From: Okeania sp. SIO2C9
Lineage (GTDB): Bacteria > Cyanobacteriota > Cyanobacteriia > Cyanobacteriales > Microcoleaceae
Length of the DNA: 64,000 nucleotides
Direction of reading: 5' to 3'
Assembly: GCF_010672455.1 (NCBI RefSeq)
Contig: NZ_JAAHGO010000039.1
Location: 1 to 64,000, forward strand
Below are positions 7,577 through 43,115 of the stretch, piece by piece. Position 1 is the stretch's first letter. Every line of letters begins with the position of its first letter. The notes under the pieces were generated by a model that did not search any database, was not told the DNA's origin, and was given only the letters and a program-made list of their open reading frames with translations. A program made the position numbers and the translations under genes.

Positions 7577-7730
7577 TATAGTAGTCGAAGGAAAGGTTAG
7601 GACAGTTAAAAAGTTTAAAACTCAGACGACATAAGACTTTTTCTTTTTTCTTGTTTCTTTTTTCTTGTTTCTTTTTTCTTGTTTCTTTTTTCTTGTTTCT
7701 TTTTTCTTCTTCCTTCTTCCTTCTGTTATA
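7577..7730 (-). repeat. MITE-like element, family A, with 14-bp satellite
   Basis: The copy begins TATAGTAGTCGAAGGAAAGG and ends CTTCCTTCTGTTATA. Between them lies AAACTCAGACGACATAAG followed by about five units of CTTGTTTCTTTTTT, a 14-bp period that is twice seven. Confidence 0.65.
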
Positions 7731-11162: not shown

Positions 11163-11768
11163 TCAATTTATTTGATTAGCTGCCTCTTGCAATTTTTCGA
11201 CTATTTTTTTATTTTTTTGGCTACGGCTACCATATAATCTAGCACTAAAAACTTTGATTATTTCTAAGATATCTGTACCCAAATCTTCTTCTTCTGTAGA
11301 TTCAGAAAAGTGATTAATAATCACAATTTCTGTACCAAAAATCTCACAAATTGTAAAGATTAGTTCCGAACCAAATCTTACTAAACGGTCTTTATTCGTT
11401 AAAACTAAACGCTCTACTTTTTCTGAGCAGATCATTTTTATTAATCTTACTAACCCCCGTTTTCTATAGTTTATTCCGGAACCTAAATCTCGGATAATTT
11501 CTACTAGCCAACCCTGATTATTACAGTAGGCTTCTAGTACCATAATTTGTCTATCTAAATCGGCTGTTCGCTCAGAATTGGAAATGCAGGCATAACCAAT
11601 AGTTTTACGTTCTCCGGCTCTTAGTCCAAGAAGAGTGGTAACATCATATCGGCGATGTCCATTTTTAGTTCTTTCTGATTGGATTTTGCCTTCACGTTCC
11701 CATCTTCTTAGAGTACTTTCTGCTACTCCAAGTAGTTCTGCGGCTTTCCCTATAGAAATTTTGCTCAT
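11163..11768 (-). CDS. tnpA: IS607-type serine recombinase TnpA
   Basis: A 201-residue protein with a MerR-like winged helix at the N-terminus (ISIGKAAELLGVAESTLRRW, residues 4-23), then a small serine-resolvase domain, the IS607 arrangement. The nucleophile region reads IGYACISNSERTADLDRQ with the serine at about S63, but the usual arginine of YARVS is a cysteine here. The downstream conserved KDRLVRFGSE is intact. IS607 elements normally carry tnpB next to tnpA; none follows here, only a 200-bp gap before plsX. It may therefore be a solo or stranded copy, possibly inactive because of the R-to-C change. Confidence 0.85.
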   Translation of the reverse strand: MSKISIGKAAELLGVAESTLRRWEREGKIQSERTKNGHRRYDVTTLLGLRAGERKTIGYACISNSERTADLDRQIMVLEAYCNNQGWLVEIIRDLGSGINYRKRGLVRLIKMICSEKVERLVLTNKDRLVRFGSELIFTICEIFGTEIVIINHFSESTEEEDLGTDILEIIKVFSARLYGSRSQKNKKIVEKLQEAANQIN

Positions 11769-11929
11769 TTTCAGAACTTAGCATATTCAATAAACAAGTT
11801 TAGCAAATAATTTAGTAAAATTTTGTAAACCTTTAATCTTTTATTTTCTCAGTAATTTCAGTAATTATAGTAAAAAATAATACTTGAAATATGTAAGTTT
11901 TAAGAAGGCAGAAGGCAGAAAGGAACATT

Positions 11930-13270
11930 ACTTATGGATAGTCAACGACTGCGTCTGCCAAAATAGTAATGAATAAATTTTCTTTTTTCGATTCCATAAT
12001 TAGCCAATCTCCAGAGCAATAAATTTTCTACCTCCTCAGTAGAAGTCTTCAAATTCATTATTGCCAGATGTTTGATGTCTTACTGTTGCGTATGGCAAAA
12101 CAGTAATGAATGAATTTTCTATTTTCGATTCCATAATTAGCCAATCTCCAGAGCAATAAATTTTCTACCTCCTCAGTAGAAGTCTTCAAATTCATAATTG
12201 CCAGATGTTTGATGTCTTACTGTTGCGTATGACAAAATAGTAATGAATAAATTTTCTATTTTTGATTCCATAATTAGCCAATCTCCAGAGCAATAAATTT
12301 TCTGCCTCCTCAGTAGAAGTCTTCAAATTCATAATTGCCAGATGTTTGATGTCTTACTGTTGCGTATGGCAAAACAGTAATGAATAAATTTTCTATTTTT
12401 GATTCAATAATTAGCCAATCTCCAGAGCAATAAATTTTCTACCTACTCAGTAGAAGTCTTCAAATTCATAATTGCCAGATGTTTGATGTCTTACTGTTGC
12501 GTATGTCAAAACAGTAATGAATAAATTTTCTATTTTTGATTCAATAATTACACCAGCTTCCGAGCAATAAACTTTCTGCCTCCCCAGTAGGAGTATTCAA
12601 ATTCATTATTGTCAGGTGTTTGATGTCTTACTGTTGCGTATGACAAAATAGTAATGAATAAATTTTCTATTTTTGATTCAATAATTAGTCAAGCTCCCGA
12701 ACAATAAATTTTCTGTTTCCTCAATAGGAAATTCCAAATTAATGGCTGGCAAAGATTTGATGTCTTACTATTGCGTATGACAAAATAGTAATGAATAAAT
12801 TTTCTATTTTTGATTCAATAATTACACCAGCTTCCGAGCAATAAATTTTCTGCCTCCTCAGTAGGAGTCTTCAAATTCATAATTGCCAGATGTTTGATGT
12901 CTTACTGTTGCGTATGGCAAAACAGTAATTAATAAATTTTCTTTTTTTGATTCAATAATTACACAAGCTCCCGAACAATAAATTTTCTGCCTCCTCAGTA
13001 GAAGTCTTCAAATTAATGATTGGCAGATGTTTAATGTCTTACTGTTGCGTATGGAAAAACAGTAATGAATAAATTTTCTTTTTTTGATTCAATAATTACA
13101 CAAGCTCCAGAGCAATAAATTTCCTGTCTCCTCAGTAGAAGTCTTCAAATTCATAATTGGCAGATGTTTAATGTCTTACTGTTGCGTATGTCAAAACAGT
13201 AATGAATAAATTTTCTTTTTTTGATTCAATAATTAGTCAAGCTCCCGAACAATAAATTTTCTGTTTCCTA
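11930..13270 (+). repeat. tandem array of about ten 137-bp units
   Basis: The landmark (G/A)ATGTCTTACT(G/A)TTGCGTATG occurs at 12074, 12211, 12348, 12485, 12622, 12759, 12896, 13033 and 13170, exactly 137 bp apart each time. A degenerate unit begins near 11937. Because 137 is not a multiple of three, the array is unlikely to be translated as a repeat protein. Each unit carries two hairpins: TTACTGTT/AACAGTAA and TTCTAC/GTAGAA around loop CTCCTCA. Paired positions change together between units. The array ends about 100 bp before the carboxypeptidase gene. Confidence 0.9.
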
Positions 13271-13371
13271 TCCCTAAAAACATAATCTTTGTATGATGAA
13301 GTGCGGAATGTGGGATATATATGATTGAAGTCCACTATGATAGAAAAACTTGAAAAAAATTGAATTGATTT

Positions 13372-14679
13372 ATGTGGGATTTGTTCAGCTATGGAATTAT
13401 ATCTCTATGGCTAGAAATGGCAGGCATACAAACTATTGGGCAAAATACTCTAACGATAATGAAATGGCAAGCAGGTCTACCTCAATTAATTTCACCTGAA
13501 AATTCCGATCAAATATTAACTATAAAAGTAGATGAATACTTGAAAGGTTTGGCAGCCAAGAGATTACTAACTTCCGATGCTCAGGGTATATGGATACAGT
13601 CAGAATTTAAACTTTTGCATGGCCACGAAGGCACAGTTCCCATGCCTGGTGCTTCCTTAACAAAAATCGCCACATCCTTAGCTGCACTAGAAACTTGGGG
13701 ACCTCAACATCAATTTGAAACCTCTATCAGTACCACAGGCCCAATTACAAATGGAATATTGCGAGGAGATTTAGTAATTAATGGTGGCAATGACCCATAT
13801 TTTGTCTGGGAAGAAGCGATCGCCCTGGGTAATGCCATCCAAAAATTGGGAATTAATCAAGTCACAGGTAATTTGATTGTAGTAGGTGATTTCTGGATGA
13901 ACTATCAGACTAACCCTATAGTTGCAGGCCAATTATTGCGAGAAGGTATAAATTCAGCCACTTGGTCTAATAATGTGAGAAATATCTACAACCGAATGCC
14001 ACCAGGAACACTTCAGCCAAAAGTGGCGATCGCTGGTTCTGTGATATCCCAAAAATCTGTATCTACAGAAATTCCAATTGTTCGACACAAGTCTTTGCCA
14101 CTTATCTATATTCTCAAAACTATGAATGTGGAAAGTAATAATGAATTGGCTGAAATCATAGCTAGTAATTTGGGTGGAGCAAAAGTTGTTCAACAAAAAG
14201 CTGCCTGGACTGCGGGAGTGCCTCAAGCAGAAATTCAGTTAATTAATGGTTCTGGGTTGGGAGTGGAAAATAAAATTTCTCCAAGAGCAGTGAGTGGGAT
14301 GTTAATAGCTATTCAAAGGTATCTTCAAACTTCTGAGTGGGTTATTGCTGACTTGTTTCCGGTATCTGGTTATGATAGAGGAACTTTAGTAGACCAGTCG
14401 AGGAATATTCCCCAGGGTTCGGCGGTGAAAACTGGTACTCTGAATGATGTGATTGCTTTAGCTGGAGTTATTCCTACCCGTGAAGAGGGTTTGGTTTGGT
14501 TTACAATGATCAACCGAAGTCCTTACTGGGAGGTAACACGGGTGGAGCAAGATAAATTTTTACAGCAATTAGTAAATCTTTGGGGAGTTACAAAAGCACC
14601 CAAAGTTATTACTCCTCAGATTAATGGCGATAGGTTGGGTTTGGGAGCTAGCGATCGAAATCAGATTTTGGGAAAATAG
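13372..14679 (+). CDS. D-alanyl-D-alanine carboxypeptidase (PBP4/DacB family)
   Basis: A 435-residue serine-type D,D-carboxypeptidase/endopeptidase of the S13 family, which trims or opens cross-links in peptidoglycan. The three active-site motifs are in order: SLTK (S95, K98) in PMPGASLTKIATSLAAL, ESNNELAEII (SxN) and VKTGTLNDVIALAG (KTG). The N-terminus (MWDLFSYGIISLWLEMAG) is hydrophobic but is not a textbook signal peptide, a form I associate with cyanobacterial members. The sequence between SxxK and SxN is short for an S13 enzyme. The gene stands alone, with the 137-bp array upstream and 300-bp repeats downstream. Confidence 0.9.
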   Translation: MWDLFSYGIISLWLEMAGIQTIGQNTLTIMKWQAGLPQLISPENSDQILTIKVDEYLKGLAAKRLLTSDAQGIWIQSEFKLLHGHEGTVPMPGASLTKIATSLAALETWGPQHQFETSISTTGPITNGILRGDLVINGGNDPYFVWEEAIALGNAIQKLGINQVTGNLIVVGDFWMNYQTNPIVAGQLLREGINSATWSNNVRNIYNRMPPGTLQPKVAIAGSVISQKSVSTEIPIVRHKSLPLIYILKTMNVESNNELAEIIASNLGGAKVVQQKAAWTAGVPQAEIQLINGSGLGVENKISPRAVSGMLIAIQRYLQTSEWVIADLFPVSGYDRGTLVDQSRNIPQGSAVKTGTLNDVIALAGVIPTREEGLVWFTMINRSPYWEVTRVEQDKFLQQLVNLWGVTKAPKVITPQINGDRLGLGASDRNQILGK

Positions 14680-26759: not shown

Positions 26760-28640
26760 TTTTAGTTGAATAAATAGTCATGCATAGGGGCGGACGAACC
26801 CCAATAAGTTAATAGTATCAAAATTTTTTTGGGGATGCAATGGGAATTTCTGCCGTTTTTTTTTTGAGCTTCACAGAATGATAATTTTTGTGCTCAGGAG
26901 TTATAGGTGGGAATTATCCAAATGATATTAATTTGATAATTTGAGAAATTTGGTGGTTATATTTATTTGATTTTTGATGACTGATAAAATGAGTGAATTT
27001 TGTGGAGTGGAAATTGTGCGAAGAGTAAGAAGCGATATTGCTTGGCAAGGTTGAGGCGATCGCTACAAAACAAAGATGTGGTTGTTTTTAGGTGCTTCAA
27101 AGAATGATTTTCTCTGGTTTTAAGTGAACGTGTATCTTCTGCTCTTTCTAGGAGTTTTATCTGCTGTTGACAATAAGGCTGATGCCACGCTTCGCGATCG
27201 CTACAATCTCTTGATATCCGAATCTTAGTTTCTTTTGTTGAATAAATAGTCATGTATAGGGGCGGACGAACCCCAATAAGTTAATAGTATCAAAATTTTT
27301 TTGAGGATGCAATGGGAATTTCTGCCGTTTTTAGGAGCTTCACAAGATGACAATTTTTGTGGTGAGGAGTTGTAGGTGGGAATTATCGGAATGATATTAA
27401 TTTGATAATTTGAGAAATTTGGCGGTTATATTTATTTGATTTTTGATAGCTGAGAAAATGAGTGAATTTCGTGGAGTGGAAATTGTGAGAAGAGTAGGGA
27501 ACAATATTGCTTGGAAGGGTTGAGGCGATCGCTCTTAAAACAACTACATATGTTTTTTTAAGAGCTGAACAGAATGATTATTTCTCTGGTTTTAATATGA
27601 GCGTGCATCTTTTGCTATGTCTAGGAGTTTTATATCCTGTTGGCGATACGGCTGACGCCACGCTCCGCGATCGCTACAATCTCTTAGTATGCTAACCTTA
27701 CTTTCTTGGTTGAATAAAAATTCATGACCAGGGGCGAACGAACCCCACTAAGTAAATACTATCACAATTTTTTTGAGGATGCAATTAGAAATTCTTTCGA
27801 GCGCCGATTTTTTAGAAGCTTCACAGAATGATAATTTTTGTGGTCAGGAGTTATAGGTGGGAATTATGGAAAAGACATTAATTGAATGAATTGAAAAATT
27901 TGGTGGTTATATTTATTTGATTTTTGATAGCTGAGAAAATGAGTGAATTTCGTGGAGTGGAAATTGTGGGAAGAGTAGGAAGCGATATTGCTTGGCAAGG
28001 TTGGGGTGATCGCTACAAAACAAAGATGTGGTTGTTTTTTAGGAGCTTCACAGAATGATTTTCTCGGGTTTTAAGTGAACCTCTATCTTCTGCTCTTTCT
28101 AGGAGCTTTATCTGCTGTTGACGATACGGCTGATGCCACGCTTCGCGATCGCTAAAATCTCTATAATATCCTAACCTTACTTTTTTAGTTGAATAAAAAG
28201 TCATGCGTAGGGGCGAATAAACCCCACTAAGTAAATACTATCACAATTTTTTTGAGGATGCAATGGGAAATCCTTCCGAGCGCCGATTTTTTTAGAAGCT
28301 TCACAGGATGATGTTTTTTGTGGTGAGGAGTTGTAGATGGGAATCATGGAAAGAAAAGACATTAATTGAATGAATTGAAAAATTTGGCGGTATTTTTATT
28401 TTTCGGCGAGAAAATGAGTGAATTTCGTGGAGTGAAAATTTTGGGGAGAATAGGGAGGCATATTGCTTGGCAAAGTTGAGGCGATCGCTAGAAAAAATAG
28501 ACCTATAATTTTTAATTTTTATTAGAGCTTCACAGAATGAAAATCCTTGTAGTTTTTGGATAATAGATGGGAATAATAGAGAAGAAATTAATTTCATGAT
28601 TAGATATTTAGTTGTTTGAGCTATTTGGTAAATCAAATAC
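26760..28640 (+). repeat. four tandem copies of a ~472-bp element-L repeat
   Basis: GTTGAATAAA(T/A)A followed by TCATG recurs near 26765, 27237, 27709 and 28187, giving periods of about 471, 472 and 478 bp. Each unit holds GGGGCG(G/A)A, a block GAGCTTCACA(G/A)(A/G)ATGA and GAGTGAATTT(C/T)GTGGAGTG, plus CGATCGCT in most units. The last unit is truncated. Short open frames within it are shadows of the repeat. Confidence 0.85.
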
Positions 28641-34899: not shown

Positions 34900-36195
34900 A
34901 AATTTAGTTGAATAAAAAGTCATGCGTAGGGGCGAACAGCCCCCAACTGTTTTTATGATATCAAAATTTTTATCAGGATACAACCAAAAATCCTTTGACG
35001 CGCGAATTTTTATCATGAGCTTTAGAGAATGAAAATGTTGGTGATTTTCCACGCTAGTAGGAATGGGTGGAAAAATTTTGAGAACCACAAGCATATATTT
35101 ATTGAAGCTTCACAGAATGAAAAAATTCTGCCATTGCTTCTGGGGAAGATTCTGGAAAATCCTTTGACAGGGCTAATTTTTCCGGAGCTTCACAAGATAA
35201 AAATGTTGGTAATATTTCACGCTAGTAGGAATGGGTGGAAAAATTTTGAGAACAACAAGCATATATTTATAGGTGCTTCGCAGAATGAAAATATTCTGGC
35301 ATTGCTCCTGGGGAAGATTCCTGAAAATCCTTTGACAGGGCTAATTTTTCCGGAGCTTCACAAGATGAAAATATTGGTAATATTTCACGCTAGTAGGAAT
35401 GGGTGGAAAAATTTTGAGAACAACAAGCATATATTTATAGGTGCTTCGCAGAATGAAAATATTCTGGCATTGCTCCTGGGGAAGATTCCTGAAAATCCTT
35501 TGACAGGGCTAATTTTTCCGGAGCTTCACAAGATGAAAATATTGGTAATATTTCACGCTAGTAGGAATGGGTGGAAAAATTTTGAGAACAACAAGCATAT
35601 ATTTATAGGTGCTTCGCAGAATGAAAATATTCTGACATTGCTCCTGGGGAAGATTCCTGAAAATCCTTTGACAGGGCTAATTTTTCCGGAGCTTCACAAG
35701 ATAAAAATGTTGGTGATTTTCCACGCTAGTAGGAATGGGTGGAAAAATTTTGAGAACCACAAGCATATATTTATAGGTGCTTCGCAGAATGAAAAATATT
35801 CTGGCATTGCTCCTGGGGAAGATTCCTGAAAATCCTTTGACAGGGCTAATTTTTTCGGAGCTTCACAAGATGAAAATATTGGTAATTTTTCACGCTAGGA
35901 GAGATGGATGGGAAAATTTTGAGAATAACAAGCATATCTTTAATGAGTGCTTCACACAATGAAAATATTCTGGCATTGCTCATGGGGAAGATTCTTGGAA
36001 ATCCTTCGACAGGGCTAATTTTTTCGGAGCTTCACAAGATGAAAAAAATGGTGATTTTCCACTGGGAGAGATGGATGGAAAGATTTTGAGAACAACAAGC
36101 ATATCTTTATAGGTGCTTCACACAATGAAAATATTCTGGCATTGCTCATGGGGAAGATTCTTGGAAATCCTTTGACAGAACTAATTTTCCGATAA
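34900..36195 (+). repeat. element-L leader plus seven tandem 168/169-bp units
   Basis: A GTTGAATAAAAAGTCATGCG leader (about 34906) is followed by units starting GAGCTT at 35017, 35185, 35353, 35521, 35689, 35858 and 36027: four periods of 168 then two of 169. Each unit is itself dimeric, with GAGCTTCACAAGATGAAAAT and GTGCTTCGCAGAATGAAAAT halves. Because 168 is divisible by three, a 266-codon frame (35029-35829) with a 56-residue period stays open through the first units. I regard it as incidental, since the same DNA occurs elsewhere without an open frame. Confidence 0.85.
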
Positions 36196-41769: not shown

Positions 41770-43115
41770 ATAGCGATCGCCTCTTGTATCTCTTCGACTT
41801 TTTACCAGTTTTTTTCACAGATGAAAATTTCACTCCTATATATAGATACTTGAAAATTTGTCAGAGATTTTTCCATAATATTTGGTTTACCTAGAGGTAA
41901 GTAGATATTTTCTGAAGTGGAGCAATCACCTCTTGTATCTCTTCGACTTTTTACCAGTTTTTTTCACAGATGAAAATTTCACTCCTATATATAGATACTT
42001 GAAAATTTGTCAGAGATTTTTCCATAATATTTGGTTTACCTAGAGGTAAGTAGATATTTTCTGAAGTGGAGCAATCACCTCTTGTATCTCTTCGACTTTT
42101 TACCAGTTTTTTTCACAGATGAAAATTTCACTGACCTATATAGATAGTCGAAAATTTATCAGAGACTTTTCTAGACTATCTCCTCTACCTAGAAGTAAGT
42201 AGATATTTTCTGAAGTAGAGCGATCACCTCTTGTCTCTCTTCGACTTTTTGCTAGTTTTTTTCACAGATGAAAATTTCACTCCTATATATAGATAGTCGC
42301 AAATTTGTCAGAGAATTTTTCCAGATGTCTGGTCTGCCTAGAAGTAAGTAGATATTTTCTGAAGTAGAGCGATCGCCTCTTACTTCCCATCGACTTTTTA
42401 CCAGTTTTCCTCACCGATGAAAATTTTACTTCCAGGTATAGGTAGTCGAAAATTTGTTAGATAATTTGACCAAATGTCTGGTCTACCTAGAAGTAAGTAT
42501 ATATTTTCTGAAGTAGAGCGATCGCCTCTTAACTACCTTCGACTTTTTACCAGTTTTTGGAACAAATGAAAATTTCAATGACCTATATAGATACTTGAAA
42601 ATTTGTCAGAAAATTTTCCCAAATATTTCCTCTACCTAGAAGTAAGTATATATTTTCTGAAGTAGAGCGATCGCCTCTTAACTACCTTCGACTTTTTACC
42701 AGTTTTTGGAACAAATGAAAATTTCAATGACCTATATAGATACTTGAAAATTTGTCAGAAAATTTTCCCAAATATTTCCTCTACCTAGAAGTAAGTATAT
42801 ATTTTCTGAAGTAGAGCGATCGCCTCTTACCTACCCTCGACTTTTTACCAGTTTTCGGAGCAGATGAAAATTTCACTCTTATATATAGATAGTCGCAAAT
42901 TTGTCAGATAATTTTTCCAGATGTCTGGTCTATCTAGAGGAAAGTAGATATTTTCTGAAGTAGAGCGATCGCCTCTTAACTCCCTTCGACTTTTTAACAG
43001 TTTTCGGAGCAAATGAAAATTTCACTCTTATATATAGATAGTCAAAAATTTGTCAGAAATTTTTCCAGATGTCTGGTCTATCTAGAGGAAAGTAGATATT
43101 TTCTGAAATTGTCAT
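41770..43115 (+). repeat. tandem array of nine 149-bp units
   Basis: CGACTTTTT(A/G)(C/A) occurs at 41795, 41944, 42093, 42242, 42391, 42540, 42689, 42838 and 42987, every step exactly 149 bp. Each unit contains GATGAAAATTTCA-type and ATTTTCTGAAGT(A/G)GAGC blocks; later units carry GCGATCGC next to the latter. Most units keep a TCTAC...GTAGA-type stem with wobble changes. The array follows the helicase gene by 55 bp and ends in an element-L copy. Confidence 0.92.

Follow-up and report, generated by a model that had tools for sequence, protein, structure and literature searches.

The tandem array and its neighbourhood

The window analysed in this study is a 64,000-nucleotide stretch of the Okeania sp. 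SIO2C9 genome (contig NZ_JAAHGO010000039.1, positions 1 to 64,000). It contains a regular tandem array upstream of a cell-wall gene, and a lone IS607-type gene is located between plsX and the array. The features of the locus are as follows:

11163..11768 (-): lone IS607-family serine recombinase with MerR HTH and resolvase domain (NF033518, E = 1.7e-56)
11950..13263 (+): tandem array, 9.6 x 137 bp
11943..12079 (+): degenerate first unit, left half-site lost (CAACGACTGCGTCTGCC), remainder intact
12080..12106 (+): dyad 1 (hairpin 1), TTACTGTTGCGTATGGCAAAACAGTAA; left half CTGTTGCG intact, right half degenerate (CAAAACAG versus CGCAAYAG)
12163..12181 (+): hairpin 2 of the first full unit, TTCTACCTCCTCAGTAGAA, within the array-specific spacer
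12217..12243 (+): dyad 2, G/T at pair 6:22
12354..12380 (+): dyad 3
12491..12517 (+): dyad 4
12628..12654 (+): dyad 5, G/T at pair 6:22; its unit has the T-A closing pair of hairpin 2
12765..12791 (+): dyad 6, A/T at pair 6:22; the sole ACTATTGCG half-site in the window array
12902..12928 (+): dyad 7
13039..13065 (+): dyad 8
13176..13202 (+): dyad 9
13372..14679 (+): downstream cell-wall gene, putative D-alanyl-D-alanine carboxypeptidase/PBP4-like, named from its own sequence

Tandem Repeats Finder (TRF) described positions 11950-13263 as 9.6 copies of a 137-bp period with 90% match and 0% indel. Nine intact hairpin-1 landmarks are found at 12080+137n (n = 0-8; 12080, 12217 ... 13176), separated by eight exact 137-bp intervals without indel, and their consensus is TTACTRTTGCGTATGnnAAAAYAGTAA. 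The exact spacing reported in an earlier note on this DNA was thus borne out by both TRF and the landmark positions. The last unit breaks off inside hairpin 2. The units repeat as a whole, spacer included, unlike a CRISPR array with its short repeats and unique spacers.

Each unit is composed of a conserved core of ~70 bp, consisting of TTTGATGTC, the dyad and an AT-rich AATGAATAAATTTTCTATTTTTGATTCAATAATTA, and an array-specific spacer of ~68 bp. Among three species, 50 of the 70 core columns were invariant versus 26 of 68 in the spacer (p = 1.5e-4). The earlier note had assigned two hairpins to each unit. The first is a real inverted repeat; the second is only part of the array-specific spacer, being absent from the other arrays that contain the dyad and broken in several orthologous units. 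All nine units have an intact left half-site of the dyad together with a degenerate right half-site (CAAAACAG), and affinity for a binding protein may therefore be reduced in this array.

Variation in the two arms of the dyad

In the earlier note, paired changes in the hairpins were interpreted as evidence of selection on RNA structure. The three states given for pair 6:22 of hairpin 1 (G-C, G-U and A-U) were indeed present, with G-U in units 12217 and 12628 and A-U in unit 12765 (the note's positions were 6 lower). The T-A closing pair of hairpin 2, which had been placed in the A-U unit, actually belongs to unit 12628 and not to 12765, and the two paired changes are therefore in different units. 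Within the window, pair 6:22 was GC in six units, GT in two and AT in one (Fisher p = 0.33). When 23 orthologous units from three Okeania species were used for a covariation test, 452 of 500 shuffles reached the observed score, and the pair was unpaired in 8 of the 22 distinct rows. The orthologous arrays of Okeania sp. SIO1I7 and O. hirsuta retain both hairpin arms, and 8 of the 10 units in SIO1I7 have A·C at pair 6:22. Among 214 distinct related cores (GC 13, GT 45, AT 116, AC 40; Fisher p = 0.72), the left base (A/G) was independent of the right base (C/T). A G-T on one strand corresponds to A·C on its complement, and as both occur frequently, the RNA of neither strand is protected. In addition, folding of the unit RNA showed no excess over shuffled sequences (z between -0.56 and 0.04).

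The claim of selection on RNA structure thus failed in the orthologous arrays as well as family-wide, and an RNA-structure array was dismissed because the arms are independent, A·C is found in orthologs and the folds match those of shuffles. The R/Y variation is most simply explained by each arm being a predicted protein half-site, CTRTTGC, accepting either purine.

A further proposal of the earlier note was a tandem small-RNA array, in which, as in NsiR1, each 137-bp unit would have its own promoter and give rise to a structured sRNA. Cyanobacteria offer a precedent in NsiR1, a tandem array of 12 sRNA copies of about 60 nt each with individual promoters (PMC9045159), and the window repeats are also intergenic, regular and equipped with hairpins. 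On the other hand, a scan limited to sigma-70-like sites detected 0 promoters in 11760-13372 versus 9.0 in shuffles, no terminator-like site was found in the array, and both the near-zero fold z-scores and the missing covariation in orthologs and family-wide argue against structured transcripts. The arrays of a second motif (see below) keep a 12-mer and mostly have no hairpin, which implies that sequence recognition is separable from RNA structure. Moreover, the gene contexts of the arrays are convergent, co-directional or mixed, with both orientations relative to genes. No Rfam match at gathering score was found in the array, the only one in the window being a tRNA at 1729-1802. Based on these observations, an sRNA array is very unlikely.

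Distribution of the dyad in the genome and the clade

To search beyond the window, two window units were used as queries against the whole genome (10.88 Mb, 317 contigs). More arrays were found, with different periods and spacers, and they have in common with the window array only the stretch around hairpin 1. What stays constant among the arrays is a dyad of 21 bp, CTRTTGCG-N5-CGCAAYAG, whose right half is weaker in the window array; in its best form, the site reads CTATTGCG-N5-CGCAATAG. In the window genome, the dyad is present in at least 11 tandem arrays with periods of 70-168 bp (44-168 bp over the clade), including 70 (contig C289), 74 (C28), 121 (C68), 128 (C316), 137 (the window), 145 (C273), 147 (C255) and 168 bp (C285), among others. 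Exact CTRTTGCGTAT was found 70 times, mostly in tandem arrays, versus twice for the reversed control, and the full dyad 134 times versus 0. Each array has different neighbouring genes, whose arrangement is co-directional, convergent or mixed.

Marine cyanobacteria akin to Okeania and Trichodesmium have dozens of such arrays, and hundreds of copies of the dyad were detected in Okeania, Trichodesmium and Hydrocoleum. Among named genomes, the pattern was restricted to Okeania, Hydrocoleum and one Trichodesmium metagenome-assembled genome, apart from two single hits, in Clostridiales and Bacilli, which we attribute to chance. In the 62 genomes of the family (one mismatch allowed), Okeania has 105-154 dyads per genome and the genus g7 up to 285; other genera have 0-1 copies, except genome G011 with 57, and the reversed control gave 0 in all 62 genomes. 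Comparison with phage DNA revealed no match to the array. Thirteen viral contigs (L098-L110) contain one match each to the dyad pattern, which may reflect either chance or carriage by cyanophages.

The positions of the loci are conserved across Okeania species, and the spacer drifts faster than the core. At the locus orthologous to the window array, SIO2B3 and SIO3B5 have only one dyad left, with an IS200/IS605-type element inside (L030:1500-1580 with L045:1480-1510 in SIO2B3; L029:540-640 in SIO3B5). This implies that tandem copies are gained or lost at a fixed locus, and the copy number at one locus ranges from about 1 to 11 between species. In the 168-bp array of contig C285, the dyad core of one unit is inverted (TACTGTTGCGACATACGCAACAGT versus TACTGTTGCGTATGTCGCAACAGT; L022:7558-7582), an arrangement that template switching or recombination between the arms would be expected to produce. 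A shortened perfect palindrome, ACTATTGCGCAATAGT, is present at some loci (L040, L052 and L192). A tnpB gene (G000:C281) that seemed to be interrupted by the dyad proved in the alignment to be a truncated copy with an array remnant fused to it, and the reading as an insertion was rejected.

The dyad upstream of an expanded HTH_17 family

The dyad was also seen as a single copy immediately upstream of an ATG in O. hirsuta and Hydrocoleum. The gene that follows encodes a protein of ~160-180 aa (range seen 158-184 aa) with an N-terminal HTH_17 (excisionase/MerR-like) domain (PF12728, E = 7.5e-7) and a C-terminal domain matching phrog_8676, a phage family of unknown function. In the AlphaFold model (mean pLDDT 81, pTM 0.51), the winged helix-turn-helix (wHTH) resembles BldC (6ama), Xis (4j2n and 2og0), RacA (5i44) and RdfS (8dgl) in Foldseek, with high probability over about 42 residues and no PDB match reaching E 0.001, and the C-terminal domain resembles a protein of an uncultured phage (E = 1.1e-6). 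Phage matches to the protein are partial and mostly cover the C-terminal domain. A sequence search of solved structures found no relative, and no match was present among PLSDB plasmids.

Okeania genomes have 21-30 members of this family each, with up to 47 in g7, and array-rich genomes in general have 15-47 paralogs. In the close subfamily with a QRVR recognition helix, nearly all genes have the dyad upstream of the ATG, in both orientations and in several unrelated upstream contexts. Counted across subfamilies, 26 of 40 genes have an exact ACTATnnCG no more than 45 nt from the ATG, versus 4 of 40 with one in the 115 nt before that; the exact site is missing from five STARVRV genes and one QRVR gene. 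In some HTH genes the dyad follows or overlaps a putative promoter -10, TGTTATACT or GTATTATT. HTH genes from three genera outside the clade (L263-L265) have no upstream site, and their genomes have no arrays. The number of sites was correlated with the number of HTH genes among 62 genomes (Pearson 0.97), within the clade (rho 0.82; 12 genomes with at least 3 HTH genes) and in g7 (rho 0.99), although neither the 62 genomes nor those of the clade are phylogenetically independent.

These genes bear on another proposal of the earlier note, namely that the array is bound by a protein or a recombinase. The protein-binding part is favoured, because the dyad is also upstream of HTH_17 genes; the recombinase part is not, because an IS607-like neighbour is unique to this locus among the arrays inspected in the window genome. 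An array serving the adjacent serine recombinase for binding or recombination would be in line with the position of the MerR/resolvase gene about 180 bp upstream and with its synteny in at least four of five Okeania species. However, the other arrays with the same motif that were inspected in the window genome have no such neighbour, and the motif is found upstream of HTH_17/phrog_8676 genes instead, which makes this explanation extremely improbable. No tnpB lies beside the IS607-type tnpA gene, which is intact in several Okeania species and is possibly a domesticated recombinase. It is a syntenic neighbour, as is the cell-wall gene in Okeania, and is not considered part of the array system.

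Motifs of other HTH subfamilies

If one subfamily has the dyad as its operator, the others would be expected to have their own motifs and arrays. Four motifs were derived solely from the upstream sequences of other HTH subfamilies and then counted genome-wide. Motif 2, AACGTTRTAGTT (GRLR subfamily), had 87 sites in the window genome versus 11 for the control; most of them belong to nine additional arrays with periods of 53-170 bp, and the motif is confined to the same clade. Motif 3, ACTRTTGKMCAAYAGT (RQRLL subfamily, one mismatch allowed), had 304 sites versus 0 in the window genome and 457 in SIO3B5 (control 0-2 across genomes), forms several arrays of 71-76-bp period, and was found once in each of three genomes of other genera. 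The remaining two motifs showed no such enrichment and were not found in arrays: TTYCGNAATAGTTT (ARLR subfamily) had 12 sites versus 10 in the control, and AACGATCTAGTT had 5 sites, three of them at HTH genes. In the AACGATCTAGTT group, two of three window-genome genes and one Hydrocoleum relative also carry ACTATAACG. Thus, two of the four predictions succeeded strongly, and a second and a third pair of matching motif and paralogs were observed in the sequence. The two bases after ACTAT also follow the recognition helix, being TG in the QRVR type (16), AA in the GRLR type (10) and TC or TT in the ARLR type (6, with one exception).

Some motif-3 sites are located in mobile-looking repeats. In O. 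hirsuta (L291, L292 and L294), the motif-3 dyad AACTATTGTCCAATAGTT is inside ~85-bp MITE-like elements with AGGACTTACGCA / TGCGTAAGTCCT ends, and G011 has a dispersed ~230-bp repeat with two motif-3 dyads 96 bp apart (L283-L286 and L293). Mobility therefore explains part of the copy number of this motif. A more general explanation of this kind is that all dyads are selfish or neutral repeats spread by slippage and transposition, and that the HTH genes obtained the motif from repeats landing nearby. Both the AGGACTTACGCA-ended elements and dispersed repeat and the variation in tandem copy number at the same locus between species are in line with it. On the other hand, many paralogs keep the short distance between motif and ATG although their upstream sequences are unrelated and the motif occurs in either orientation, three motif types pair with their own subfamilies, and loci are conserved across Okeania species with a spacer that drifts faster than the core. 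We regard the general form of this explanation as unlikely. Neither terminal inverted repeats nor target duplications were seen at the window-array ends in the five Okeania species compared; elsewhere, motif-3 dyads are inside the MITE-like elements described above.

The window also contains further tandem arrays at 26762-28495 (481 bp x 3.7), 34987-36188 (168 bp x 7.1) and 41772-43107 (149 bp x 9). No ACTATnnCG was found in the window arrays starting at 7727, 26762, 34987 and 41772. A GAGCTTCACA(G/A)ATGA-like box is common to those at 34987-36188 and 26762-28495. Several arrays that contain the dyad (L172, L174 and L177) have a similar box, TTCATTTTnTGAAGCA, situated about 25 bp away from the dyad. 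Such boxes possibly represent another site class.

Proposed function of the arrays

Considering the sequence evidence together, it is likely that the arrays are rows of predicted operator sites serving a wHTH family that is autoregulated, expanded in this lineage and diverged in its specificities, and not an RNA-structure array. We infer that a dimer of a QRVR-subfamily HTH_17 protein would bind the dyad, with one wHTH per half-site. Binding at the promoter or start of an HTH gene would repress that gene, and as the same site is present at the QRVR genes' own promoter or start, the protein should repress itself. Related folds offer models for such behaviour: BldC oligomerises cooperatively on repeated sites (PMC5859096), and RdfS, an oligomeric member of the wHTH class, acts as a repressor of its own promoter (PMC11963761). 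The most likely role predicted for the arrays is that of a reservoir of bound protein, which would act by titrating the autoregulator, by building nucleoprotein clusters locally, or both, and array copy number may be tuned by unequal recombination. A broader scheme, which we consider possible though somewhat doubtful, is that the 15-47 wHTH paralogs with their subfamily sites (ACTATTGCG, ACTATAACG and ACTATTGGCCAATAGT), each autoregulated and provided with its own set of tandem arrays, might act as orthogonal chromosome-organising or repeat-silencing systems, with a logic comparable to that by which animal zinc-finger proteins and transposons co-diversify.

The genomes of Okeania, Hydrocoleum and Trichodesmium are unusually rich in repeats and non-coding DNA, and this non-coding DNA is poorly explained. 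Should the arrays prove to be operators for an expanded family of regulators, a definable share of this DNA would be functional and testable. Several specificity classes (type of recognition helix versus half-site) would then be available for studying the evolution of wHTH specificity, and the clade would provide a bacterial example of DNA-binding paralogs co-diversifying with repeats. The new part is the paired arrangement of paralogs and arrays; an array of binding sites alone is a variant of known operator clusters. Our literature search, which was partial in coverage, found no paper linking these motifs or the tandem arrays of Okeania/Trichodesmium to a protein, and we know of no named bacterial system with such a paired arrangement.

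Comparison with known systems

Grouped sites of a regulator that can sequester it or organise DNA are well known, such as datA-like titration sites, iterons and parS clusters. These involve one or few loci and one conserved protein, whereas here at least 20 arrays are present in one genome and several motif types are matched to paralogs. REP/BIME and MITE repeats are also intergenic palindromes that are sometimes clustered, and motif 3 is partly in MITE-like elements. In contrast to such repeats, the window array has no terminal inverted repeats visible at its ends, the period varies between loci, and the sites are paired with predicted HTH gene operators. Tandem repeats are common in filamentous cyanobacteria, including STRRs and LTRRs, of which the former are heptanucleotide repeats; STRRs are also present in the window but do not contain the dyad.

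NsiR1 of Nostoc is similar in being a cyanobacterial intergenic tandem array of near-identical units. Its units are transcribed sRNAs with their own promoters, whereas no promoter or structure signal was found in the window array, whose constant element is a protein-type dyad that is also present at HTH gene starts.

The HTH proteins belong to the same wHTH fold class as BldC, Xis and RdfS, which bind repeated sites and can oligomerise (PMC5859096; PMC11963761). They differ from these in their extra C-terminal phage-type domain (phrog_8676) and in the 15-47 paralogs per array-rich genome. Membership in BldC itself was rejected: BldC is a single-domain protein of about 70 residues, and the proteins described here, with 158-184 aa and an additional domain, are BldC-like in fold and not a BldC. 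The sites also differ in layout, as those of the BldC type are direct repeats spaced by one helical turn at one promoter, whereas the sites of the array-rich clade are dyads placed every 44-168 bp at many loci.
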